64,000 bases of DNA from Nissabacter sp. SGAir0207. Its GTDB lineage: Bacteria > Pseudomonadota > Gammaproteobacteria > Enterobacterales > Enterobacteriaceae. Under the pieces are notes generated by a model, which was not told the origin of the DNA, ran no database searches, and saw nothing but the letters and a program-made list of their open reading frames with translations. Below, in pieces: positions 16,482 through 29,181 of the stretch. How positions within the stretch are numbered: position 1 is the first letter of the stretch; the number at the start of each line of letters is the position of its first letter. The position numbers and the translations under genes are program-made. Where the stretch lies: NCBI RefSeq assembly GCF_005491205.1, contig NZ_CP028035.1, positions 930,001 through 994,000 of the forward strand, written 5' to 3'.

Positions 16482-16790
16482 TGTCACTCCATTCATTTAG
16501 CCTGACATTTCCCTGGGGGCCGGAACGGGGATGCCTGAACGGCATACGATATTTTAGGGGGAATCAGGTTGAATCACGGTCTCCAGGCCAGGGCGGCCGG
16601 TCGCTTAGCACCGTGTCTCCAGGCCCATTATGGCGAGAGAAATGCGCTAAAGTCCAATAATTATCGAGAGTTAACATTGTCATGCAATGTTCATAAAACT
16701 GTCTTAAGATGCGCGGTCAATCGCGGCTTTTGCATGATGGAATGGGGGCCGCAACCCACAGGGATTTTTACTTTTTATGCAGGACGGGCA
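16482..16790. other. 309-bp divergent region between ppk and the pst operon
   Basis: This region contains the Pho box and -10 described separately (16677-16709), serving the rightward pst genes. The ppk promoter must lie in the left half; no strong sigma-70 pair was picked out there. An in-frame extension of the pstC frame runs back to 16569 but crosses the promoter, so it is not coding. Confidence 0.6.
16677..16709 (+). promoter_or_regulatory. Pho box and -10 of the pst operon
   Basis: Three 7-bp units spaced by 4 bp read TTGTCAT-gcaa-TGTTCAT-aaaa-CTGTCTT (16677-16705). They match the PhoB direct-repeat pattern CTGTCAT-N4-CTGTCAT. A -10-like TAAGAT (16704-16709) follows the first two units by 9 bp, the spacing seen at PhoB-activated promoters, where the Pho box replaces the -35. 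Confidence 0.85.
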
Positions 16791-18923
16791 GTGCATATAC
16801 GTGACCTACCTCTCTCTTCAGACCGCCGCCGCGCCCGCACCGATCGACTGGTGCGCTATGCCGTGACCGGATGCGGCATGCTGGTGTTGTTGGCCCTGAT
16901 GCTGATCTTCATCTACCTGCTCTACAGCGTCTGGCCGCTGTTCCGCACGGTGTGTGTCAACCAGCCGGTGACGCTACGCGTTGACACCTCCACGCCGTCG
17001 CTGGCCATCGGCACGCTGCCGGACCGGCGCTGGGGCTACCGCCTCGACAGCGCCGGGCAGGGCACCTTTATCCGGCTGACGCCCTCCGAGGAGGCGCCGC
17101 TCACCACGCCGCTCGCCGCTGCGCCGCTGGCCTCGCTGGCGCGCAACGCCGGTGCGCAGCCGATGTATGCCCTTGGCGGCCAGGATGGCCGCGTGACGCT
17201 GGTGACACCGCTGATGCCGCTGCCGCACCACGGCCCGAGCTGGTCATTCCCGCTTGGCCGCACGCCGCAGGTGGTTGACCCGGCGGGCCAGCCGCTGGTG
17301 AAACTGGCGCTGGCGGCGGGCGAGGGGCAGGCCACCCGGCTGGCGGCGGTGACCGCCGATCGCCGCCTGTGGGTGCGCGACCTGCCCAGCGGGCGCGAAG
17401 AGACGCTGCCGCTGGCGGCGCTGCCTGACACCCTTGCCCTGACCCCCGATGGCCGCCTGCTGTTTGTGCAGAGCGGCCCGCTGATGCAGATCTACGCCCT
17501 GAACCACGCCACCCTGCGCCTGCGCCAGACGGTGGTGCTGGCCGAGCGCGGCCCGGTGAGCGTGACGCTGCTCAGCGGCGGCAACTCGCTGCTGGTCAAC
17601 GCGGGCGGCCAGCTCTCCCAGTGGTTTGACGTCGCTGGCCCGAACGGCCCGGTGTTGCAGAAGATCCGTGACTTCCAGCCGCAGGGCGTGGCGCGCGTGG
17701 CGGCCGAAACCTCGCGCCGGGTGTTCGTGGCGCTGGATGCCCACGGGCAGATGACGCTCAATTCGACGGTACAGACGCGGCCGCAGCTGCACCATGCGCT
17801 ACCGGCAGCGACCGAGCGACTGGCCTTCGCGCCACTCGGCGACGGGCTGCTAGTGGAGCAGCCGGGCGGCTGGATCTCGCTGCATGTCACTAATCCCTAT
17901 CCTGACGTCGGCCTGCGCACCCTGTGGCAGAAGGTGTGGTATGAGGGCTACCCGGAGCCAGCCTACGTCTGGCAGACCACCTCGGCGGCGGAGGGCTACC
18001 AGCCCAAGTTCAGTTTGGTGCCGGTGATTGTCGGCACCCTGAAGGCGGCGCTCTGCGCCATGCTGTTCGCCGCGCCATTGGCGCTGGGCGGCGCGGCCTA
18101 CACCGCGTGGTTCATGACCCCGCGCCTGCGGCGGTTGGTGAAACCGGCGCTGGAGGTGATGGGCGCGCTGCCGACGGTGGTGATCGGCCTGATAGCTGGC
18201 GTCTGGCTGGCCCCGCTGCTGCAACATGTGCTGCTCGGCATTCTGCTGCTGCCGTGGCTGCTGGCGGCGGTGGCGCTGCTGGGCAGTGTGCTGGCGGTGC
18301 GCCAGCGTTGGCGTAGCGCCGGGCAGGAGGTGTTCTGCCTGCTGCCGCTGCTGGCACTGGTGACCTGGCTGGTGTGCCACGCCAGCCCGTGGTTCGAGCA
18401 AATGCTGTTTGGTATGCCGTTCGCCCAGTGGCTGGGGGAAGAGTACCAGCCGCGCAACACGCTGGTGGCGGGCATCGCGATGGGCTTTGCGCTGGTGCCC
18501 GTGATCTTCACGCTGGCGGAGGATGCGCTGTTCAGCGTGCCGCCGCTGCTTGGGCAAGGCTCGCTGGCGCTGGGGGCGACCCCGTGGCAGACGCTGCGCC
18601 GGGTGATTGTGCCCGCCGCCGCCGCCGGTATCTTCTCCGCGCTGATGATCGGCTTTGGCCGGGCGGTGGGGGAGACGATGATTGTGCTGATGGCGACCGG
18701 CAACACGCCGGTGATGGATGGCAGCCTGTTGCAGGGGCTGCGCGCGCTCTCTGCCAACATCGCGATTGAACTGCCGGAGGCGGTAGCCAACAGCGGCCAC
18801 TACCGGGTGCTGATGCTGACCGCGCTGGTGCTGTTCCTGTTTACCTTTGTGCTGAACACCGTGGCGGAGCTGATCCGCCAGCGGCTGCGGGCGCGCTATA
18901 GCCAGAACCAGGAGGGCGCATGA
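16791..18923 (+). CDS. pstC: Phosphate ABC transporter permease, PstC type with large extracytoplasmic domain
   Basis: This 710-residue permease has one N-terminal membrane helix (about 23-48), then about 360 residues outside the membrane. That part has repeated hydrophobic beta-strand segments (LAVTADRRLWVRDLPSGREE, LALTPDGRLLFVQSG) suggestive of a beta-propeller. A C-terminal ABC permease domain follows (about 415-710) with the EAA-type loop at LGQGSLALGATPWQTLRRVIVPAAAAG. E. coli PstC is only about 320 residues and lacks the insert. I chose GTG at 16791 because AGGA lies 6 bases upstream; an ATG at 16734 is possible but has no ribosome site. It overlaps pstA by 4 bp. No pstS or phoU gene accompanies it. 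Confidence 0.83.
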   Translation: MHIRDLPLSSDRRRARTDRLVRYAVTGCGMLVLLALMLIFIYLLYSVWPLFRTVCVNQPVTLRVDTSTPSLAIGTLPDRRWGYRLDSAGQGTFIRLTPSEEAPLTTPLAAAPLASLARNAGAQPMYALGGQDGRVTLVTPLMPLPHHGPSWSFPLGRTPQVVDPAGQPLVKLALAAGEGQATRLAAVTADRRLWVRDLPSGREETLPLAALPDTLALTPDGRLLFVQSGPLMQIYALNHATLRLRQTVVLAERGPVSVTLLSGGNSLLVNAGGQLSQWFDVAGPNGPVLQKIRDFQPQGVARVAAETSRRVFVALDAHGQMTLNSTVQTRPQLHHALPAATERLAFAPLGDGLLVEQPGGWISLHVTNPYPDVGLRTLWQKVWYEGYPEPAYVWQTTSAAEGYQPKFSLVPVIVGTLKAALCAMLFAAPLALGGAAYTAWFMTPRLRRLVKPALEVMGALPTVVIGLIAGVWLAPLLQHVLLGILLLPWLLAAVALLGSVLAVRQRWRSAGQEVFCLLPLLALVTWLVCHASPWFEQMLFGMPFAQWLGEEYQPRNTLVAGIAMGFALVPVIFTLAEDALFSVPPLLGQGSLALGATPWQTLRRVIVPAAAAGIFSALMIGFGRAVGETMIVLMATGNTPVMDGSLLQGLRALSANIAIELPEAVANSGHYRVLMLTALVLFLFTFVLNTVAELIRQRLRARYSQNQEGA

Positions 18924-20587
18924 GACGTTGGTGGCGCTCAGGCTCGCCCTGGATCTGGCTCACCGCGGCGGCGGTGGCGGCCAGCGTGCTGGCACTGGCT
19001 GGCATCATCCTGCTGCTGGCAGGGCAGGGGGCGCGCAGCTTCTGGCCAGCCGACGTCTGGCAGTTCACCCTGCGCGCGCCGCTGGCGGGCCAGAACCAGT
19101 TGCTCGGCGAGCTGTATGCCCGGCCGTCGGTGCCGCGCCAGCAGCTGATTGACGCCGGTGTCACGCTACCAGCGGATGCCCCGCCCACGCTGCGGCGGTT
19201 GTTGGTCAAGACCGGCAACCGCGACCTGTCGGCGGCCTCGCCAGCGGCGCGCGAGTTTGTGCTGCTGGATGAGGCGGATGTCACGGCGCGCCGTGCGCCG
19301 CCAGAGGTGCTGGTGCTCGACCGCGAGGAGAGCGGGCTGGCCTACGGCACGCTGGCGGGCATGTTGGAAAATGGCCAGCCGCTGGTGGCGCGCAACCTGG
19401 CGGAGGAGCTGCTGCGCCGGGTGCCGGAGAACCGTGCGCTGGCCGCCCGCGCCTACCGCCTGCAACACCACGATCTGGCGCGGGTCAACCACCGCTTTGA
19501 GGCGCTGCGGCTGGAGGAGCGGCGGTTGGCGCTGCATGACCAGCTGGATGCGCGGGCGGTGTCGCGTTTGCGCGCAGAGCGCATTGAGCTGGAGTACAGC
19601 TTCAGCCGCCTGACCGCGCAACTCGACAGCATCAATCAGGAGCGGCGGCGCGACGCGCTGCTATTGCGTGACGCTGCTGGCCAGTTGCATACCCTGCCGC
19701 TGAACGAGGTACACAACGCCTGGTATCCGAACGCCATGAGCCTGCCGCAGAAGCTGCTGCACACCGCGCGCGCCATCTGGGCCTTCTTGAGTGAGGATCC
19801 GCGCGCCTCCAACACCGCGGGCGGCGTCTTCCCGGCGCTGTTTGGCACGGTGCTGATGGTGGTGCTGATGTCGATCATCGTGATGCCGCTCGGCGTGGTG
19901 GCCGCCATCTACCTGCATGAGTACGCGGGCCGCCACTGGCTCACCCGGCTGCTGCGGGTGGCGGTGGTCAATTTGGCCGGTGTGCCGTCGATTGTTTATG
20001 GGGTGTTTGGCCTCGGCTTTCTGGTCTATGGCGTCGGCGGCTCCCTCGACCGGCTGTTCTTCCCGCAGGCGCTGCCCGACCCAACCTTCGGCACGCCGGG
20101 GGTGCTGTGGGCGGCGCTGACGCTGGCGCTGCTCACCCTGCCGGTGGTGATTGTCGCCACCGAGGAGGGGCTGTCACGCATCCCGGTGGCGCTGCGGCAA
20201 GGCTCGCTGGCGCTGGGGGCCAGTCAGGCGCAGACGCTCTGGCGCATCGTGCTGCCGATGGCGGTGCCCGCGATGCTGACCGGCATGATCCTGGCGATCG
20301 CCCGCGCCGCTGGCGAGACCGCGCCGCTGATGCTGGTGGGGGTGGTGAAGTCGGTGCCAGCGCTGCCGGTGGATGGTATCTTCCCCTACCTGCATCTGGA
20401 CCGTAAATTTATGCACCTTGGCTTCCAGATCTATGACATGGCGCTGCAAAGCCCGAACGTGGAGGCGGCGCAGCCGCTGGTCTACGCCACCGCGCTGCTG
20501 CTGGTGCTGATTGTGGTGGGGCTGAATTTGGTGGCGATGGGGCTACGCCACTCACTGCGAGAGAAATTCCGCACGCTGGGCCTGTAG
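18920..20587 (+). CDS. pstA: Phosphate ABC transporter permease, PstA type with extended N-terminal region
   Basis: This 555-residue partner of the preceding permease overlaps it by ATGA. It has one N-terminal membrane helix (about 14-36) and a long extracytoplasmic stretch that includes a charged, probably coiled-coil segment (about 190-250, rich in Leu, Arg and Glu). The permease domain (about 300-555) has LHEYAGRHWLTRLLRVAV and the coupling loop LRQGSLALGASQAQTLWRIVLP. E. coli PstA is about 296 residues, so both membrane subunits here have gained an extracytoplasmic module. The two inserts probably contact each other or a substrate-binding protein encoded elsewhere. Confidence 0.85.
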   Translation: MRRWWRSGSPWIWLTAAAVAASVLALAGIILLLAGQGARSFWPADVWQFTLRAPLAGQNQLLGELYARPSVPRQQLIDAGVTLPADAPPTLRRLLVKTGNRDLSAASPAAREFVLLDEADVTARRAPPEVLVLDREESGLAYGTLAGMLENGQPLVARNLAEELLRRVPENRALAARAYRLQHHDLARVNHRFEALRLEERRLALHDQLDARAVSRLRAERIELEYSFSRLTAQLDSINQERRRDALLLRDAAGQLHTLPLNEVHNAWYPNAMSLPQKLLHTARAIWAFLSEDPRASNTAGGVFPALFGTVLMVVLMSIIVMPLGVVAAIYLHEYAGRHWLTRLLRVAVVNLAGVPSIVYGVFGLGFLVYGVGGSLDRLFFPQALPDPTFGTPGVLWAALTLALLTLPVVIVATEEGLSRIPVALRQGSLALGASQAQTLWRIVLPMAVPAMLTGMILAIARAAGETAPLMLVGVVKSVPALPVDGIFPYLHLDRKFMHLGFQIYDMALQSPNVEAAQPLVYATALLLVLIVVGLNLVAMGLRHSLREKFRTLGL

Positions 20588-21421: not shown

Positions 21422-21690
21422 CCACGCAAAATCATCCGCGCCAGTTATGCAAAAAATTCATGCATCACTGGCGCAGATTACTTCCTTTCCCCACAAAATC
21501 ATCGGCTTAACGCCGCCATCACGACCCCTGTCACACTCCCCGCCAAATCACCTTGTCAGCAAAGCACGTGCTCATTAAGTTGCTAACTCGAGTTAGCAAA
21601 GAGCGGTGGGTGTCAGGTTGCCCCTGTCAGGTTGTCGAGGCACCGGTGTGGTCGCCCTTACCGGATCCATTATCAGGTGAGGAGAACAGT
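21422..21690. promoter_or_regulatory. Intergenic region between pstB and the GH172 gene
   Basis: An imperfect 14-bp stem-loop spans 21438-21474 (arms GCGCCAGTTATGCA and TGCATCACTGGCGC, one mismatch). It could end the pst transcript although no T run follows. AGCACGTGCT (21562-21571) is a 10-bp palindrome of unknown meaning. TTGTCA (21553-21558) and TTAAGT (21575-21580) could be a promoter abutting the LacI-family operator at 21580-21599. GAGGAGA precedes the ATG at 21691. Confidence 0.55.
21580..21599. promoter_or_regulatory. Operator 1 of the sugar regulon (before the GH172 gene)
   Basis: A perfect 20-bp palindrome has the core GCTAACTCGAGTTAGC. The same 16-bp core recurs at 27141-27156 and 27358-27373, upstream of the other two transcription units of this regulon. 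Its size and symmetry fit a LacI-family repressor, and such a gene lies inside the cluster. Confidence 0.88.
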
Positions 21691-23022
21691 ATGCCAGCGG
21701 AGCGCGCAGGTCTTTTACACACGCTAAGCCAAATCAGGGACGCCCGCAGCGGGCGGCTCTCCAGTTGGGATCAGAGTGGCCGGAATCAGGATTACTGGAT
21801 GATCCCGGCCGGTGAAACGGTGCGGCTGGCCGACATCCACGGCAGCGGCTGCATCACGCATCTCTGGATGACGCAGTTTTGCCGCCGCGTGCTGGGGCCG
21901 GGGCTGATTGACCCGACCGCCGGCCAGTACGTCGCGCCCATCAACGAAATCAACAACGCGCTGGGCGTGAGTTGGGAGGAGCATGACGCGGCCTACTACC
22001 GCAAGGTGCTGCTGAAGATCTACTGGGACAACCAGACGCAGCCCTCGGTGCTGGTGCCGCTGGGCGACTTCTTCTGCGTCGGGCATAGCATCCCGGCCAG
22101 CTTCAACTCGCTGCCCTTCACCGTCTCGGTGCGGCCGGAGGAGAACTGCCGCCCCGGCGCGACGGCGGCGCTGAACTGCTACCTGCCGATGCCCTTCAAT
22201 GAGCGCGCGATCATCGAAGTCGAGAACCAGAACGACATCCCCTACGGCCAATACTTCCACATCGACTATGAGCGCTACCCGGAGCGTCACTCCGCCGACA
22301 CCGCCTACTTCCACGCGTGGTGGCGGCGCGAGAATCCCTGTCGCGGCTGGGCGCCGGAGTTGCAGGTCAACAGCCCGGAGGTGAACATCCCCAACGAGGA
22401 TGGCGCTGGCAACTATATGCTGCTCGACATCGAAGGGGAGGGGCACTACATCGGCTGCAACCTGTCGGTGCGCCACCGCCAGAACACCTGGTGGGGCGAG
22501 GGCGATGACATGATCTACATCGATGATGACCCGGCCTGGCCGCCGACCCTGCACGGCACCGGCACCGAGGACTACTTCAACCACGCGTGGGGGATGCAGG
22601 ATGCCTGCTCGCCCTTCAACGGCACCGCGCTGCATGACTCCCACGTCCCCGGCTTCCAGACCAGCTACCGCTTCCATCTGGCCGACCCGATCCACTTCAA
22701 GAGGCGCATCCGCGTCACCATGGAGCATGGCCACGCCAACCACCTGTCGGATGACTGGGCCTCTACCGTCTACTGGTACCAGAAACTGCCGTCGCCGCCG
22801 CTGACGATGCAGCCGGTCAACGAGCGCATCCCGGCGCGCCCCGGCGAGCCTTTTGCCCCGCTGGTGGAACCGGCGCTCACCGAGGCGATGCGCGCGCAGA
22901 AACAGCAGGCCGCGGCGCGGCACGCTGACTGGCTGGCACTCCGGCAGCGGGAGATTGACCGCAAGATCGCCGCCACCCGCGAGAAGTCACGCGCCAACAA
23001 GGCGGGCGACCCCGCCTGCTAA
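21691..23022 (+). CDS. GH172 (DUF2961) glycoside hydrolase, cytoplasmic
   Basis: The 443-residue protein belongs to the DUF2961 family, now GH172. The signature GTGTEDYFNHAWG (residues 289-301) and the preceding GEGDDMIYIDD (269-279) are clear, giving Glu270 and Glu293 as likely catalytic residues. Known GH172 enzymes act on alpha-D-fructofuranosides or D-arabinofuranosides. There is no signal peptide, so it should act in the cytoplasm on an imported oligosaccharide or glycoside. An upstream extension of the frame to 21553 would run through the operator and is rejected; GAGGAGA before 21691 marks the start. It is followed after 65 bp by the transporter. The neighbours point to D-arabinofuranoside rather than fructoside as substrate, by inference. 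Confidence 0.87.
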   Translation: MPAERAGLLHTLSQIRDARSGRLSSWDQSGRNQDYWMIPAGETVRLADIHGSGCITHLWMTQFCRRVLGPGLIDPTAGQYVAPINEINNALGVSWEEHDAAYYRKVLLKIYWDNQTQPSVLVPLGDFFCVGHSIPASFNSLPFTVSVRPEENCRPGATAALNCYLPMPFNERAIIEVENQNDIPYGQYFHIDYERYPERHSADTAYFHAWWRRENPCRGWAPELQVNSPEVNIPNEDGAGNYMLLDIEGEGHYIGCNLSVRHRQNTWWGEGDDMIYIDDDPAWPPTLHGTGTEDYFNHAWGMQDACSPFNGTALHDSHVPGFQTSYRFHLADPIHFKRRIRVTMEHGHANHLSDDWASTVYWYQKLPSPPLTMQPVNERIPARPGEPFAPLVEPALTEAMRAQKQQAAARHADWLALRQREIDRKIAATREKSRANKAGDPAC

Positions 23023-23087
23023 GGGGTGGGCAGCCGGTGCGCCACCTTGCCCGCCGGCTGCCCGCAACGGTTGATGACAGGGAGTGA

Positions 23088-24434
23088 ATGATGACTACAC
23101 GCTTGTCTGTTTTGGAAAAAACCGCCTACGGCGCCGGGGATATGGCGCTGACCATCTCGATCATCTCCGCGTCGATTTTGATCTACGCCTTTCTGGTTCA
23201 GGTGGTGGGTTTGACGCCGGTGGACGCTGGCTGGATATTGATGATTGTCCGCACCATCGATGCGATCTCCGATCCCTTGATGGGGCTGTTGACCAGCCGG
23301 GTGCGCAGCCGGCTGGGGCGCTACCGGCACTGGCTGATCATCGGCGCGCTGCCGTTCGGGCTGTCTCTGTGGCTGCTGTTTACCTCGTTTGGCGAGACCT
23401 ACGCGCAGAAGATGGCGTGGTCTACCGGGGCCTACATCTTCAACAGCCTGGCGTTCACGGTGCTGGCGATCCCCTATATTTCGCTGATTGGCGTCATTAC
23501 CCCCGACCCGCAGGAGCGGCTGCGTGCCAACGCCTTCCGCTTCCCGATGGCGAAGGTCGCCACCCTGATTGTCTCTACGCTGGTGCCGTGGTGGGTGACG
23601 CAGGGCACTGACCCGCACCGCAGCTACGCGCTCGCCTTTATGGTGGTGGGGGCGGTGAGCGTGGCGATCATGCTGTTCTGCGCCTTCAACGTGAAGGAGC
23701 GCATCGTGCAGGAGGCCGCGCCGCCGCCGCTGGCGCAGCAGATCCGTGGCCTGCGTGACAACCGCCAGTGGCAGGTGATCAGCCTGGCAATGGTGGTGCT
23801 GTTCGTCGGTTTTCTGGTCAATGGCAGCGTCGCCATCATCTACGGCAGCGCCTTCGCTGGCGCGAGCGATGGCGTGGGCATCGCGCTGTTCATGAGCATG
23901 GGATCGGTGGGCGGCATCCTTGGGCCGCTGCTCTCCACCTGGCTGACGCGCCGCTACTGCAAGGTGAAGGTGTTCCGCTACTCGATGTATGGCTCTGCGC
24001 TGGTGTCGGTGCTGGCGTGGGCGCTGGTGGGGGCAGGGGAGTTCTGGGGCGCGACGCTGTTCTATCTGCTCTGCTCGGTGGTATCGCAGATCAACACGCC
24101 GATCCTCTGGTCATCCATCACCGAGGCGTCGGACTATGGCCGCTACCAGAGCGGGATTGACGCCTCCGGGCTGGCGATTGGCATGATCTCCTTCTGCCAG
24201 AAGCTGGGGATGGGCATCGCAGGCCCCATCACCGGCTACCTGCTGGCTGGCATCGGCTACACGGCGCAGGGCACCCCCAGCGCCGAGACCGTCGCCGGGC
24301 TGGCCTGGATCATGCTGCTGGTGCCCGCGCTGTTCTACCTGCTGACCGGCTGGGTGATGCGCTACTACGTCATCAACAATGACTACTACGCGCGGATGGT
24401 CGCCGCTGGTCGACTGCCGGAGGGCAGCGCCTGA
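23088..24434 (+). CDS. GPH-family (MelB-like) sugar:cation symporter
   Basis: The 448-residue, 12-helix transporter of the glycoside-pentoside-hexuronide family has LSVLEKTAYGAGDMA at the N-terminus and RTIDAISDPLMGLLTSR in the first half. This is the conserved Asp-bearing region that binds the coupling cation in MelB. RYRHWLIIGALPFG and AFRFPMAKVATL also fit. A second in-frame ATG at 23091 is equally possible; GGGAG lies just upstream. It follows the GH172 gene in the same transcript, so the imported substrate is probably a small glycoside that the GH172 enzyme then cleaves. It ends 1 bp from the convergent repressor gene. Confidence 0.9.
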   Translation: MMTTRLSVLEKTAYGAGDMALTISIISASILIYAFLVQVVGLTPVDAGWILMIVRTIDAISDPLMGLLTSRVRSRLGRYRHWLIIGALPFGLSLWLLFTSFGETYAQKMAWSTGAYIFNSLAFTVLAIPYISLIGVITPDPQERLRANAFRFPMAKVATLIVSTLVPWWVTQGTDPHRSYALAFMVVGAVSVAIMLFCAFNVKERIVQEAAPPPLAQQIRGLRDNRQWQVISLAMVVLFVGFLVNGSVAIIYGSAFAGASDGVGIALFMSMGSVGGILGPLLSTWLTRRYCKVKVFRYSMYGSALVSVLAWALVGAGEFWGATLFYLLCSVVSQINTPILWSSITEASDYGRYQSGIDASGLAIGMISFCQKLGMGIAGPITGYLLAGIGYTAQGTPSAETVAGLAWIMLLVPALFYLLTGWVMRYYVINNDYYARMVAAGRLPEGSA

Positions 24435-24435
24435 C

Positions 24436-25425
24436 TCAACGCCGCCGGATAACCGGCTTCATCTCCACCCGTACCCTCTCTCTGGCCGGGGAACCGGCCA
24501 GAGCGCGCTGCATCAATCCAAACGCCTTCTCCGCCCAGGCATCCTCATCCTGCTGCATCGACCAGACGGGGTTGGCGAGGAAACTGAGCATCGGGTGCTC
24601 GTCAAAGGTGCCGATATGGATGGCGGGCGGCACCCCGCCCGCCTCCTCACGCAGCGCGCTGATTGCTCCCTCCAGCACCGGCAGTGACGAGGCGATAAAC
24701 GCCTGTGGCATCCCGTGTTGGACGATCAGCTGGCGCATCAGCGCATGGCCGCCCTGCGGCGTGTTCTCCTCGCCAGCCAGCAGCCACTCCGCGTCGAGGG
24801 CGCGCGCCGCCAGCGCCTGCCGGTAGCCGGTAATGCGGTCAGCGATGCTGGGCAGCGCGGCGTCACCGGCCAAAAACCACAGCGGCGCGTCGTGGGCGGT
24901 GAGCATCGCCTGCGCCAGATGCAGCCCGCCAGCGGCGTTGTCACTCTCCACCAGCGCGTTGTCGCTGTAGCCAAAGTCACGATCCAGCAACACCAGCGGC
25001 TTTTTCATCTGCCGCAGGTGGTGCTGTTGGTTCTCAAGGGTGGAGGGCACCACGAACAGGCCATCGATGTTACGGGCAATCGACGCCTTAACCAGCCGGT
25101 TCTCGTAGTCCACATCATGGTAGGTGCAGCTGATCACCAGCTGGTAGCCGGAGCGGCGACAGCGCAGCTCCAGCTTCTCCGCCAGCGTGGCAAAAAACAC
25201 GTTGGAGATGTTGGGCACAATCAGCCCCAGCGTGTCGGTTTTGTTCAGCTTCAGGCTGCGCGCCGAGTGGTTGAGCGTGTAGCCGTAGCGCTCCACATGC
25301 TCCTGAATGCGCGCCTGTGTTTTCGCGCTGATGCGGTAACGCTCCGCCTTGCCCCCCAGCACCAGCCGCACGGTGGTGACGGAGAGTTTCAGCTCCTGCG
25401 CAATCTGTTCCACGGTTTTCGCCAT
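24436..25425 (-). CDS. LacI-family transcriptional repressor of the sugar regulon
   Basis: The 329-residue regulator has an N-terminal helix-turn-helix (TVEQIAQELKLSVTTVRLVLGG), a hinge helix (LNHSARSLKLNKTDTLGLIVPN) and a periplasmic-binding-protein-like effector domain to the C-terminus. It lies 63 bp downstream of the kinase gene on the same strand and is probably co-transcribed with it. The three identical palindromes before the GH172, kinase and isomerase units are the predicted operators. The inducer is unknown; D-arabinose, D-ribulose or the imported glycoside are reasonable. The recognition helix (VTTVRLVLGGK) differs from the usual LacI VSRVLN pattern, in keeping with an unusual operator. 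Confidence 0.92.
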   Translation of the reverse strand: MAKTVEQIAQELKLSVTTVRLVLGGKAERYRISAKTQARIQEHVERYGYTLNHSARSLKLNKTDTLGLIVPNISNVFFATLAEKLELRCRRSGYQLVISCTYHDVDYENRLVKASIARNIDGLFVVPSTLENQQHHLRQMKKPLVLLDRDFGYSDNALVESDNAAGGLHLAQAMLTAHDAPLWFLAGDAALPSIADRITGYRQALAARALDAEWLLAGEENTPQGGHALMRQLIVQHGMPQAFIASSLPVLEGAISALREEAGGVPPAIHIGTFDEHPMLSFLANPVWSMQQDEDAWAEKAFGLMQRALAGSPARERVRVEMKPVIRRR

Positions 25426-25488
25426 CTCAAGCGCCCCAATCCTTTTCGCTAATCAAAACCAGCAGATTAAAGCAAATGGCGCGTGAAC

Positions 25489-27078
25489 TCATGCTTCTTG
25501 CTGCATCAGTGCCTCCAGCGCCTGCTGTTGCTCCCACATCGCCAGATAGACGCGGTATTTGCGCTGGTGGAAGGGCAGGGTGGCGGGGCGGTGGCGGATC
25601 ACCGTGCCGGGCCGCACCAGCGCGCGCGCTGCCGTGGCGATATCCGGCCAGACGTTGGCCGCCACCGCGCCGCAGATGGCCGCGCCCAGCGCCACCGCCT
25701 CCTCCTCGGCAATCAGGTGCAGGTCGCGCTGGGTGGCGTCGGCGTACTCACGCAGCCACAGCGGGTTATGCCGCGCGCCGCCGCACAACGCGATGCGCTG
25801 CGGCCGGTGCCCCTGCGCCTCCAGCGCCTCAATGATGTGGCGGGTGCCGTAGGCGATGGCCTGAAGGGTGGCGAGGTAGAGCCGCGCCAGCGCCTGCTCG
25901 CCACGCTCCAGCGTCAGGCCGCAGACGCTGCCGCGTGCATCCGGCCGTGACCGGGGCGAGCGGTTGCCGTGGTGGTCTGCCAGTACATGCAGGTGCGCGG
26001 TGGGGCAGGGCTGCGCCTGCTCGAGTTGGGCGACCCACTGATTGGCAATCTCCACTGGGTGGCAACCCTGCTGTTTGGCCTGTGCGAACAGCCCGGCGGA
26101 GGCGTGGTGCTCGCCGAGCGTCCACTCCACCAGCGCACCGGCCGCGCTCTGGCCGCCCTCCGCCAGCCAGTACTCCGGCAGCATCGCGCCCCAGTATGGC
26201 CCCCAGACGCCGGGCGTGTGGATCTCGTGGCGGCTGGCGAGCATCAAACAGTTGGAGGTGCCGCTGATCAGCGCCAGCGTCCCCTCTGGCTCGGCCCCGG
26301 CCAGCGCCACGCCGCCCGCGTGGGCGTCAATCATGCCGGTGGCGACCGTGGTGCGGGTGGTCAGCCCCAGCGCCTCGGCCGCCTGCGCGCTAAGGGTGCC
26401 AGCCGCCGTCGCCACTTCAGCAACGCGCGCCGGCAGCTTGTCACGCAGGTCTGCCAGATCCGCCGCCGCCAGCAGCGAGTCGCTGAAACGCCCCTCATGC
26501 GCGAGGTAGTTCCACTTGCAGGTCAGGGTGCAGAGGCTCGCCACCTCCACGCCGGTGGCCTGCCACACCAGAAAGTCCGCCAGATCCCAAAAGCGGTGCG
26601 TGCGCTGCCAGGCCGTGGGGTGCTGCTGCTTCAGCCACAACAGCTTCGGCAGCGCCATCTCCACGCTCACCTCGCCGCCGACGTAGCGCAGCGCCGGATC
26701 CTGGCTGGCATTGATCTGCTGGGCCTGCTTCAGGGCGCGGTGATCCATCCACATGATGATGTCATGGCTTGGCTCGCCCCCCGGTGAGACCGCCACCCCG
26801 TGCCCGTGGGCATCCAGCGCCACCAGCGAGCAGGTGGCGTCAAAGCCGATGGCGCGGATCGCCTCCACCGGCACGCCAGATGCTCCCACCGCCTCGCGCA
26901 CCGCCGCGCACAGTGCCTGCCAGATCTCCGTGGAGGATTGCTCCACCCGTTCACCGCTGGCGTGGAACTGGGAGATGGGCCGGCTGGCGCAGCCCAGCCT
27001 CTCGCCAGTGGCATTGAACAGCGCGGCGCGCACGCTGGCAGACCCGACGTCCACCCCCAGAAAATAGTTGTCACTCAT
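25489..27078 (-). CDS. FGGY-family carbohydrate kinase, probable D-ribulokinase
   Basis: This 529-residue ASKHA kinase begins FLGVDVGSASVRAALFN (ATP-site loop). It has GFDATCSLVALD (TCSLV at residues 82-86), MWMDHRA, GNRSPRSRPDARG and ALCGGARHNPLW. The TCSLV motif is the published marker of D-ribulokinases within FGGY kinases, the group of human FGGY and YDR109C. They phosphorylate D-ribulose on C5, giving D-ribulose 5-phosphate. The ATG at 27078 is preceded by AAGGAG; a frame extending ten codons upstream is not needed. With the FucI-type isomerase this supplies the last two steps from D-arabinose to the pentose phosphate pathway. An operator palindrome lies 62 bp upstream. Confidence 0.87.
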   Translation of the reverse strand: MSDNYFLGVDVGSASVRAALFNATGERLGCASRPISQFHASGERVEQSSTEIWQALCAAVREAVGASGVPVEAIRAIGFDATCSLVALDAHGHGVAVSPGGEPSHDIIMWMDHRALKQAQQINASQDPALRYVGGEVSVEMALPKLLWLKQQHPTAWQRTHRFWDLADFLVWQATGVEVASLCTLTCKWNYLAHEGRFSDSLLAAADLADLRDKLPARVAEVATAAGTLSAQAAEALGLTTRTTVATGMIDAHAGGVALAGAEPEGTLALISGTSNCLMLASRHEIHTPGVWGPYWGAMLPEYWLAEGGQSAAGALVEWTLGEHHASAGLFAQAKQQGCHPVEIANQWVAQLEQAQPCPTAHLHVLADHHGNRSPRSRPDARGSVCGLTLERGEQALARLYLATLQAIAYGTRHIIEALEAQGHRPQRIALCGGARHNPLWLREYADATQRDLHLIAEEEAVALGAAICGAVAANVWPDIATAARALVRPGTVIRHRPATLPFHQRKYRVYLAMWEQQQALEALMQQEA

Positions 27079-27140
27079 CACGGCTCCTTGTTTTATCGCC
27101 GAGCACACCCGCCTTTAGCGCGCAACGCGGCCTGATAGCG

Positions 27141-27156
27141 GCTAACTCGAGTTAGC
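27141..27156. promoter_or_regulatory. Operator 2 of the sugar regulon (before the kinase)
   Basis: This is a perfect 16-bp GCTAACTCGAGTTAGC palindrome, 62 bp upstream of the leftward kinase ATG. A second inverted repeat, AATAGCG-TTGA-CGCTATT (27158-27175), directly adjoins it and may be part of the kinase promoter control. Confidence 0.85.
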
Positions 27157-27213
27157 TAATAGCGTTGACGCTATTTTACCCACCGCATTTCGCCAAGCGC
27201 TTTGGTGTCAGAG

Positions 27214-27229
27214 TGTGATCGTCTGCACA
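27214..27229. promoter_or_regulatory. Candidate CRP-cAMP site between kinase and isomerase
   Basis: TGTGA-TCGTCT-GCACA matches the CRP consensus TGTGA-N6-TCACA with one mismatch. Its centre is about 73 bp from operator 2, so it could activate the kinase promoter or serve both divergent units. Catabolite control of a sugar regulon is expected. Confidence 0.6.
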
Positions 27230-27330
27230 ATTTCGACTTAATGCAATGATAATTAAGCCTTTTGCCTATTGTGGCCTCAAGGGCGGGCAGGATTGGGCGT
27301 GAAAAGGCTCACAGAATGCGTGGAAAAGCA

Positions 27331-27374
27331 TTGAACAACTGGCGAAGCGATCCTTATGCTAACTCGAGTTAGCA
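27331..27374 (+). promoter_or_regulatory. Promoter and operator 3 of the isomerase gene
   Basis: TTGAAC (27331-27336) and TATGCT (27355-27360), 18 bp apart, form a likely promoter. The 18-bp perfect palindrome TGCTAACTCGAGTTAGCA (27357-27374) overlaps the -10, so repressor binding would block polymerase directly. Confidence 0.75.
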
Positions 27375-27426
27375 AAGGTTTTAGCCGGCTTCCGATCCGG
27401 GGGGCGGCGCTCGCCAAGGAGAAACT

Positions 27427-29181
27427 ATGAACAGAACAGCCCTGCCGCGGGTCGGCATCCGTCCGGTGATCGATGGACGCCGCCGCGGGGTACGTGAGTC
27501 AATGGAGGCGCAGACCATGGCGATGGCACAGGCCGCCGCCGCGCTGATTAGTTCAACGTTGCGCCACGCCTGCGGTGCGCCGGTGGAGTGCGTGATCGCC
27601 GAAAGCTGCATCGCTGGCATGGCGGAGGCTGCGGCCTGTGAGGCGCAGTTCAGCACCCAGCAGGTGGGGCTGACGCTGACCGTCACGCCCTGCTGGTGCT
27701 ATGGCAGTGAAACCATCGACATGGATCCGCTGCGGCCCAAGGCAATCTGGGGCTTCAACGGCACCGAGCGCCCCGGCGCGGTCTATCTGGCCGCCGCGCT
27801 GGCGGCGCATAACCAGAAGGGGATCCCGGCCTTCTCCATTTATGGCCGTGACGTGCAGGAGGCGGGCGACACCACCATCCCAACGGACGTGGCGGAGAAG
27901 CTGCTGCGCTTCGTGCGCGCCGGGCTGGCCGTCGCGACCCTGCGCGGCCGCAGCTACCTCTCGCTCGGTGGCGTGTCGATGGGCATTGCCGGATCGATTG
28001 TCGATCACGGCTTCTTTGAGTCCTGGCTCGGCATGAAGGTGCAGGCAGTGGACATGACGGAGCTGCGCCGCCGCATGGATGAGGCGATCTATGATGAGCA
28101 GGAGCTGGAGCGGGCGCAGGCGTGGGCGCAGGCGCACTTCCGCTTCGCTGGCAACGCCGAGGAGGCGCAGCGGCCAGCGGTGCTGCGAGAGTGTTTGCTG
28201 ATGGCGATCTGTATCCGCGACATGATGCAGGGCAATCCGGCGCTGGCGGCGCGCGGCTGGGAGGAGGAGGCGCTGGGCTACCACGCCATCGCCGCCGGTT
28301 TTCAGGGGCAGCGGCACTGGACCGATCGCTACCCGAATGGCGACACCGCCGAGGCGCTGCTCAACAGCTCCTTTGACTGGAATGGCCGACGCCAGCCGCT
28401 GGTGGTGGCGACGGAGAATGACAGCCTGAATGGCGTGGCGATGCTGTTTGGCCACCTGTTGACCGGCAGCGCCCAGATTTTCGCTGACGTGCGCACCTAC
28501 TGGTCACCGGAGGCGATTGCGCGCGTCACCGGCCAGCGGCTGGAGGGTCGGGCGCAGCACGGCGTGATCCACTTGATCAACTCCGGCTCGGCGGCGCTGG
28601 ATGGCAGCGCGCAGCAGCGTGACGCGCAGGGCAACCCGACGCTGAAACCGCACTGGGAGATTAGCGAGCAGGAGGCGGAGGCGTGTCTGGCGGCGACCCG
28701 CTGGTGGCCGGCGCGGCGTGACTACTTCCCCGGCGGCGGGTTCTCGTCGCAGTTCGTTACCCGTGGCGGCGTGCCCTTCACCCTGACGCGCATCAACCTG
28801 ATCCACGGGGTGGGGCCGGTGATGCAGATTGCCGAGGGGTGGAGCGTGGATCTGCCGCCAGCGGTGCATGACACGCTCGACCAGCGCACCGACCCGACCT
28901 GGCCGACCACCTGGTTTGTCGCGCGTTTGACCGGCACGAGGCCGTTCCGGGATCTTCAGTCAGTGATGGAGAACTGGGGGGCAAACCACGGCGTCTTGAC
29001 GGCCGGGCATGTGGGGGCGGATTTCATTACGTTGGCGTCGATGCTGCGCATTCCGGTCTGTATGCACAATGTGCCGGACGGGCAGATCTACCGCCCGTCC
29101 GTGTGGTCAGCCCTCGGCATGGATCGCGAGGGGCAGGATTACCGTGCCTGCCGCACGTTCGGCCCGCTCTACCGGCGCTGA
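27427..29181 (+). CDS. fucI: L-fucose/D-arabinose isomerase (FucI type)
   Basis: The 584-residue protein matches FucI in length (E. coli 591) and motifs: [41 protein letters not shown] and [21 protein letters not shown]. The Mn2+ ligands are [11 protein letters not shown] and AGHVGADF (Glu330, Asp354, His528). FucI interconverts L-fucose and L-fuculose and equally D-arabinose and D-ribulose, which share configuration at the reacting carbons. There is no fucK, fucA or fucP here, and the kinase present is of the D-ribulokinase type, so D-arabinose is the likelier substrate. It has its own promoter and operator. It ends 4 bp from the convergent purN. Confidence 0.92.

Follow-up and report, generated by a model that had tools for sequence, protein, structure and literature searches.

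A GH172 glycosidase gene joined to a DarK-type D-arabinose regulon in Nissabacter sp. SGAir0207: a probable system for scavenging D-arabinofuranosides

Gene content and operators of the cluster

The stretch of the Nissabacter sp. SGAir0207 genome analysed here (64,000 nucleotides, contig NZ_CP028035.1, positions 930,001 to 994,000; hereafter the window) carries, between pst transporter genes and purN, a cluster encoding a GH172 (DUF2961) glycosidase, a GPH-family cation symporter, a LacI-type regulator, a TCSLV-type FGGY pentulose kinase, and a FucI-type isomerase (Table 1). All five open reading frames (ORFs) are uninterrupted, and family models confirm the set as it had been named in the first-pass annotation, which was made from the sequence without database searches. 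The cluster is likely to be an added module for scavenging D-arabinofuranosides, attached to a DarK-type D-arabinose regulon of the kind found in Escherichia coli B.

The full ORF of the GH172 gene extends from 21553 to 23022 on the forward strand and includes operator 1 in its first stretch. Because this operator lies upstream of it, the ATG at 21691 is the likelier start, and this codon is preceded by a purine-rich stretch resembling a ribosome-binding site. Position 21580, previously given as the start of the cluster, coincides with operator 1 and is not the start of the first gene. No signal peptide was seen at the GH172 N-terminus on inspection by eye, and the GPH symporter is the presumed glycoside importer. 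The LacI-type regulator scores under the cut-off for all 18 NCBIfam families listed. The FGGY kinase carries its TCSLV motif at residue 82, the meaning of which in such kinases was reportedly set out by Singh et al. in 2017; it is the sole protein above the TIGR01315 cut-off in the window genome (G000) and is a probable D-ribulokinase and DarK ortholog. FucI keeps E337, D361, and H528, which we take to be its metal and catalytic residues.

Table 1. Features of the cluster, in window positions
Feature	Position	Strand	Remarks
Operator 1, GCTAACTCGAGTTAGC	21582..21597	.	Perfect 16-bp palindrome upstream of the GH172-GPH transcription unit
GH172 (DUF2961) glycosidase	21691..23022	+	443 aa from probable ATG; PF11175, 6e-85
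GPH-family cation symporter	23088..24434	+	TIGR00792, 250 bits (cut-off 231)
LacI/Cra-like regulator	24436..25425	-	Orthologous to the D-arabinose-segment regulator of E. coli B
FGGY pentulose kinase	25489..27078 (ORF to 27108)	-	TIGR01315, 504 bits (cut-off 409); probable ATG at 27078
Operator 2, GCTAACTCGAGTTAGC	27141..27156	.	Within the divergent kinase/FucI promoter region
Putative CRP-like site, TGTGATCGTCTGCACA	27214..27229	+	One mismatch from the CRP consensus that we assumed
Operator 3, GCTAACTCGAGTTAGC	27358..27373	.	217 bp from operator 2
FucI (L-fucose/D-arabinose isomerase)	27427..29181	+	TIGR01089, 1069 bits (cut-off 850)

The claim that the genes share operators was borne out by a perfect 16-bp palindrome present at three sites in the cluster and unique to it in the genome. 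With up to one mismatch allowed, its 14-bp core has only three matches in the whole 5.03 Mb, while the number of exact 16-mers expected from base composition is 0.0006. Since the core is restricted to these sites genome-wide, the cluster looks like a one-cluster regulon. A scan of 394 genomes from the order turned up this operator in four, one of them the window genome; the other three have fuc loci with an ATP-binding cassette (ABC) transporter, a LacI gene, and fucI, and in one of them (G351) a DarK-like kinase is also in place. In six ABC-transporter loci the operators are spaced by 238-240 bp, versus 217 bp in the window, and sites with one mismatch among these six are one in G112 and both in Lelliottia (L007). 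The spacings differ by about two helical turns, which would suit looping and is suggestive of it.

The E. coli B D-arabinose segment and the proposed route

The core of the cluster is the known FucI and D-ribulokinase (DarK) route for D-arabinose of E. coli B. The kinase, LacI (WP_001140843), and FucI of E. coli B REL606 are 67.3%, 70.9%, and 75.6% identical to those of the window, TCSLV is present in both kinases, and the helix-turn-helix stretch LSVTTVRLVL of the LacI protein is identical in all eight proteins compared, that of the window being one of them. This orthology is established at the level of sequence, as are the gene identities and the identity and uniqueness of the operator. The primary source for DarK and the D-arabinose segment is said to be Elsinghorst and Mortlock (1994). 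DarK is stated to be needed for D-arabinose metabolism in E. coli B (PMC12307932).

In both REL606 and BL21(DE3), the LacI gene lies in the fuc locus together with genes for the FGGY kinase and for a ribose-type ABC transporter; these are oriented divergently to fucI, with two copies of the same 16-bp operator between the divergent units; fucO, fucK, fucU, and fucR are retained as well. The window cluster instead has the GPH symporter and the GH172, with an additional operator before the GH172 and no other fuc gene adjoining. A ribose-type ABC importer is not among the genes around the window cluster, and the operator is absent elsewhere in the genome, while the Lelliottia locus L007 has both an ABC importer and a GPH symporter. 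A defined operator and regulator can now be assigned to the long-known D-arabinose cluster of E. coli B and used to trace it across genomes.

In the route that we infer, the LacI-type repressor would be bound at the three identical operators until an inducer, for which D-arabinose, D-ribulose, or a product is the probable candidate, relieved repression of the GH172-GPH unit and of the divergently transcribed kinase and FucI genes. Import of a small alpha-D-arabinofuranoside would fall to the GPH symporter, and a cytoplasmic, retaining GH172 would release D-arabinose from it. FucI would convert this to D-ribulose, and the DarK-type kinase would phosphorylate D-ribulose at C5 to D-ribulose 5-phosphate, which would enter the pentose phosphate pathway. 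A FucI close to that of the window acts on D-arabinose and D-ribulose (PMC6894278). The same succession of import, GH172, FucI, and kinase had been proposed in the first-pass annotation; it remains the best reading, given the orthology with E. coli B, the shared operator, and the lack, described below, of GH32, of an L-fuculokinase above cut-off, and of a close FucA, with the specificity of the GH172 as its unsettled part.

GH172 and its change of partner

Comparison with characterised members upheld the GH172 assignment and placed the enzyme in the clade of alphaFFase1 and not in that of ExoMA1, which does not settle its substrate. The window GH172 scores 565 bits against alphaFFase1 (PDB 7v1v) and 127 bits against ExoMA1 (8ic8), and its 54.5% identity to alphaFFase1 over 431 aligned residues lies above the threshold of 47% that the authors of PMC8605356 use for their conserved-pocket set. 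Membership in the D-arabinofuranosidase-specific ExoMA1 clade was rejected on the higher alphaFFase1 score and on the presence of Gly, not Asn, at position 299. The catalytic pair E270/E291 is kept, together with W267, D292, W298, and Y187; the calcium ligand N272 is replaced by D. In the +1 subsite, E85 is retained and K147 is replaced by R. AlphaFFase1 is a difructose dianhydride I synthase/hydrolase that cleaves both alpha-D-fructofuranosides and alpha-D-arabinofuranosides, with a kcat of 127.5 per s on p-nitrophenyl alpha-D-arabinofuranoside (pNP-alpha-D-Araf), and its K147A variant has 94% of its activity left on this substrate and 4.8% on inulobiose (PMC8605356, Table 2). As the enzyme type of this clade cleaves both kinds of furanoside, the sequence leaves both possible; the window enzyme may be specific for D-arabinofuranosides. 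In the alphaFFase1 operon of Bifidobacterium dentium, a GH172 of the same subclade with the same catalytic and -1 residues is accompanied by LacI, GH32, and an ABC transporter (PMC8605356), whereas in the window the partners are FucI, a DarK-type kinase, and GPH, and R stands in place of K147.

The genomic partners of related enzymes were surveyed in the best 80 of 590 confirmed related stretches, of which 76 are non-enteric and four enteric (L005, L006, L007, and L008), with flanks of up to 10 kb and some contigs shorter than this. A GH32 beta-fructofuranosidase lies within the flanks of 70 of the 76 non-enteric loci, and FucI or a DarK-type kinase lies within the flanks of none of the 76. 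The six non-enteric loci in which GH32 was not detected are L009 (with GH116), L015, L022, L023, L030, and L083, although the contig of L083 ends just after the GH172 gene, so that the presence of GH32 there cannot be judged. All four enteric loci have FucI and GPH and lack GH32. Eight distinct enteric clusters were compared in total, namely the window, these four, L157 (of the same genus as the window), L160, and L162, the copy on plasmid p251 of a second Chimaeribacter arupi strain not being counted. GH172, GPH, LacI, and FucI are present in all eight, with GPH following GH172 in each; the kinase is present in five and missing from the three Superficieibacter-type loci. In the one Superficieibacter-type genome examined (G394), a TIGR01315 kinase lies elsewhere, beside a short-chain dehydrogenase/reductase (SDR) dehydrogenase, dalD, xylulokinase, and an RbtT/DalT transporter, in a D-arabinitol-type operon that presumably resembles the ribitol/D-arabinitol operons of Klebsiella. 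The operator core lies upstream of GH172 in L005, L007, L008, L157, L160, and L169, and with one mismatch in L162 (L006 was left out).

A quick tree of 90 rows places the enteric GH172s in a single clade with full support (Shimodaira-Hasegawa-like approximate likelihood ratio test, SH-aLRT, 100), made up of the eight FucI-linked rows and a second copy from G672, and this clade is nested in an ingroup that is mostly GH32-linked. A genome-wide search found no GH32 in the window genome. The sequences thus document an exchange of the GH172 partner in enterics, from GH32 to FucI. Residue 147 is K in all 70 GH32-linked loci and also in L009 and L015, which lack a detected GH32. Arginine takes its place in the window, the four surveyed enteric loci, L022, L023, and L030; R is likewise found in L157, L160, L162, the second copy (L163), and p251, and hence in all eight FucI-linked enteric enzymes, while L083 has T. 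Mapped onto the tree by eye, position 147 departs from K about three times: in the enteric clade, in L022/L023/L030, and in L083. K147R and the absence of GH32 appear to have co-occurred twice independently, which we treat as a lead and not as proof. The Fisher p-value computed for the residue counts takes no account of relatedness among the loci. The partner exchange is a natural experiment on the movement of GH172 enzymes between fructofuranosides and arabinofuranosides, with position 147 as the residue to examine.

Against this stands the possibility that the GH172 is still an alpha-D-fructofuranosidase or difructose dianhydride hydrolase, with fructosides entering via GPH while FucI and the kinase serve free D-arabinose and D-ribulose and share no pathway with it. 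Its membership of the alphaFFase1 clade, the identity to that enzyme, and the conserved E85 favour such an activity, and several further points weigh against D-arabinofuranoside specificity. The window enzyme and all 80 relatives compared keep Gly299, and glycine at this position admits the fructose hydroxymethyl group, whereas asparagine there (the Asn253 rule) blocks fructofuranose (PMC10509167). Among LacI proteins, the regulator is closest to the fructose-responsive and Cra types; its best-scoring family, whose cut-off it does not reach, is D-fructose-responsive. K to R is also a conservative change. On the other hand, the window genome has no GH32 with which to finish inulobiose, and GH32 flanks none of the four enteric loci as opposed to nearly all of the non-enteric ones. 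Moreover, the lysine needed for inulobiose and not for pNP-Araf (PMC8605356, Table 2) is R wherever the enteric enzyme is linked to FucI, and is retained wherever the survey found GH32, as it is beside the GH32 of E. coli strain 53. Taking both sides together, we find a fructofuranosidase unlikely at this locus. A difructose anhydride (DFA) I pathway completed by a GH32 encoded far from the cluster was rejected, as the genome-wide search found none.

The metabolic reading, in which D-arabinose is released and then channelled through FucI and the kinase, is probably right. A wider proposal is that in Enterobacterales the GH172 changed substrate as well as partner, becoming a dedicated, symporter-fed cytoplasmic alpha-D-arabinofuranosidase with K147R under a D-arabinose repressor, and spread between chromosome sites and a plasmid; we regard this as evenly poised. 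If true, it would represent a glycoside-scavenging D-arabinose system unlike those based on ABC transporters or polysaccharide utilization loci (PULs).

Some other GH172 loci merit mention. GH172 was detectable with window DNA in 6 of 5426 E. coli genomes, and in the one of the six examined, strain 53 (L170 8932-18925), the enzyme is 65% identical to that of the window, adjoins GH32, and keeps K147. The island there reads GH172-GH32-major facilitator superfamily (MFS) transporter-LacI-carbohydrate kinase, lies beside Qat anti-phage genes and insertion sequence (IS) elements, and is likely a difructose-anhydride or alpha-fructoside system in E. coli. The second GH172-GPH pair of G672 (L163 9765-12313) lacks FucI over the length of sequence read, its operator-like site differs from the operator at two positions, and Glu replaces the active-site Trp267; it is possibly a decayed or altered copy. 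Three loci, from Blautia schinkii (L022), a Lachnospiraceae metagenome-assembled genome (MAG; L023), and a Eubacteriales MAG (L030), have an R147-type GH172 followed by what appear by eye to be ABC genes. A second GH172 is present in L022 and L023. The large protein encoded nearby gives weak matches to GH116/MGH1-like models in L023, and the one in L022 gave no match. These three are candidate clostridial D-arabinan loci. Rhizobial GH172s of a sister clade lie near GH116 in L009 (8014-14963) and L014, as in exo-beta-D-arabinofuranosidase loci, and L014 also has GH32. A plasmid collection yielded 42 Klebsiella records, large plasmids with a distant GH172 of about 30% identity among the rows listed.

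Phosphorylation route, precedents, and mobility

A route of the classical fuc type, with aldol cleavage of D-ribulose 1-phosphate, or a role in handling L-fucose, was also considered. By its model, FucI is an L-fucose isomerase; in E. coli strain 7/2 and G351 the locus of the regulator also holds fucA, fucO, and fucK, and fucA is likewise found in the Lelliottia locus L007. However, the window genome encodes no L-fuculokinase above the model cut-off and no close FucA, only three weak matches with 30-34% identity (best E 3e-16). An L-fucose pathway was rejected on these grounds, and the difference from the classical fuc route that had been inferred from the sequence alone remains probable. In E. 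coli B, fucA is interrupted by IS1A in both REL606 (L135 4971-6395) and BL21(DE3) (L136 22632-24056). REL606 is scored ++ on D-arabinose, as against - for K-12, and - on L-fucose, the last of which the authors ascribe to a transport reaction (PMC3446290, Table 1). Because REL606 grows on D-arabinose while its fucA is split by IS1A, FucA would not be needed for this growth; the observation fits such a view without being proof of it, as RhaD or another aldolase could substitute. Taken together, phosphorylation at C5 remains our preferred reading, and the ribulose 1-phosphate route appears quite improbable.

We know of no natural substrate of the D-ribuloside or D-psicoside type, which counts against import of a glycoside of another such furanose, with FucI merely interconverting by-products. 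The -1 pocket of GH172 accepts ketofuranosyl rings (PMC8605356) and PMC6894278 cites FucI-type enzymes that act on D-altrose or D-psicose, but the retention of FucI in all eight enteric clusters, even those without the kinase, points to an aldose product and makes this alternative very hard to credit.

Further observations have to be set against a D-arabinofuranoside pathway. No match to the DUF4185 (GH183) endo-D-arabinanase was found in eight enteric genomes, although no control genome gave a match either. The identification of the REL606 kinase as darK rests on gene position and on PMC12307932. Growth of BL21(DE3) is reported on both D-arabinose and L-fucose (PMC6150544) despite its interrupted fucA, so E. 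coli B may have a further active aldolase. Two C. arupi strains that carry the cluster have API50CH results for D-arabinose, DSM 115072 being weakly positive and 2016-Iso3 (L008) negative, and three further strains of the same table, whose cluster status is unchecked, were scored -, -, and + (PMC10587679, Table 1). The lack of a monosaccharide importer could explain weak or absent use of D-arabinose, though this is an after-the-fact explanation and not support.

The earlier statement that no bacterial pathway of exactly this composition had been described proved too strong, given the DarK route of E. coli B and the GH172/GH116 route with an isomerase and a kinase leading to D-ribulose 5-phosphate that was proposed for Microbacterium in 2023 (PMC10509167). 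The D-arabinan cluster of M. arabinogalactanolyticum (ExoMA1/ExoMA2) combines GH172, isomerase, and kinase with this same proposed end product, and PUL42 of Dysgonomonas gadei has GH172 genes with a predicted fucose isomerase (PMC10115798). Both also possess GH183 endo-arabinanases and GH116 (putative in D. gadei), and Microbacterium an ABC transporter. In contrast, the window has a single GH172, of a clade other than that of ExoMA1, and a symporter, and with this pairing would suit small glycosides. The Rbl system of Citrobacter rodentium likewise uses a dedicated FGGY D-ribulokinase, but imports free D-ribulose through an ABC transporter, has a KpsF-like isomerase and not FucI, and includes no glycosidase in the account given (PMC12307932). 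No description of a GH172-GPH pair inside a DarK-type regulon was found in the literature excerpts consulted, and we consider the novelty moderate, lying in the coupling of an established D-arabinose regulon with a glycosidase whose change of partner is documented. D-arabinofuranosides are rare, occurring in mycobacterial and corynebacterial walls, Pseudomonas aeruginosa pilins, and Stenotrophomonas O-antigens (PMC8605356), and an enteric with a dedicated system for them would probably scavenge the glycans of its neighbours.

The five-gene cassette appears mobile. In a congener (G586) that has no DUF2961 match, pstB and purN lie close together, and its alignment to the window DNA extends up to 21417 and resumes from 29187, with about 1 kb replacing the cluster. 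C. arupi DSM 115072 carries the same five genes on a 251-kb plasmid, p251, and the neighbours of the G485 and C. arupi clusters differ from those of the window. The GH172 of DSM 115072 is shorter, at 408 aa, with a divergent end, and the kinase/FucI operator has two mismatches in both C. arupi strains, DSM 115072 and 2016-Iso3. Adjoining the cluster in the window, at 16569-20587, two Pst-type permeases have unusually long ORFs of 784 and 555 aa, as compared with the roughly 270-320 positions of Pst permease models.

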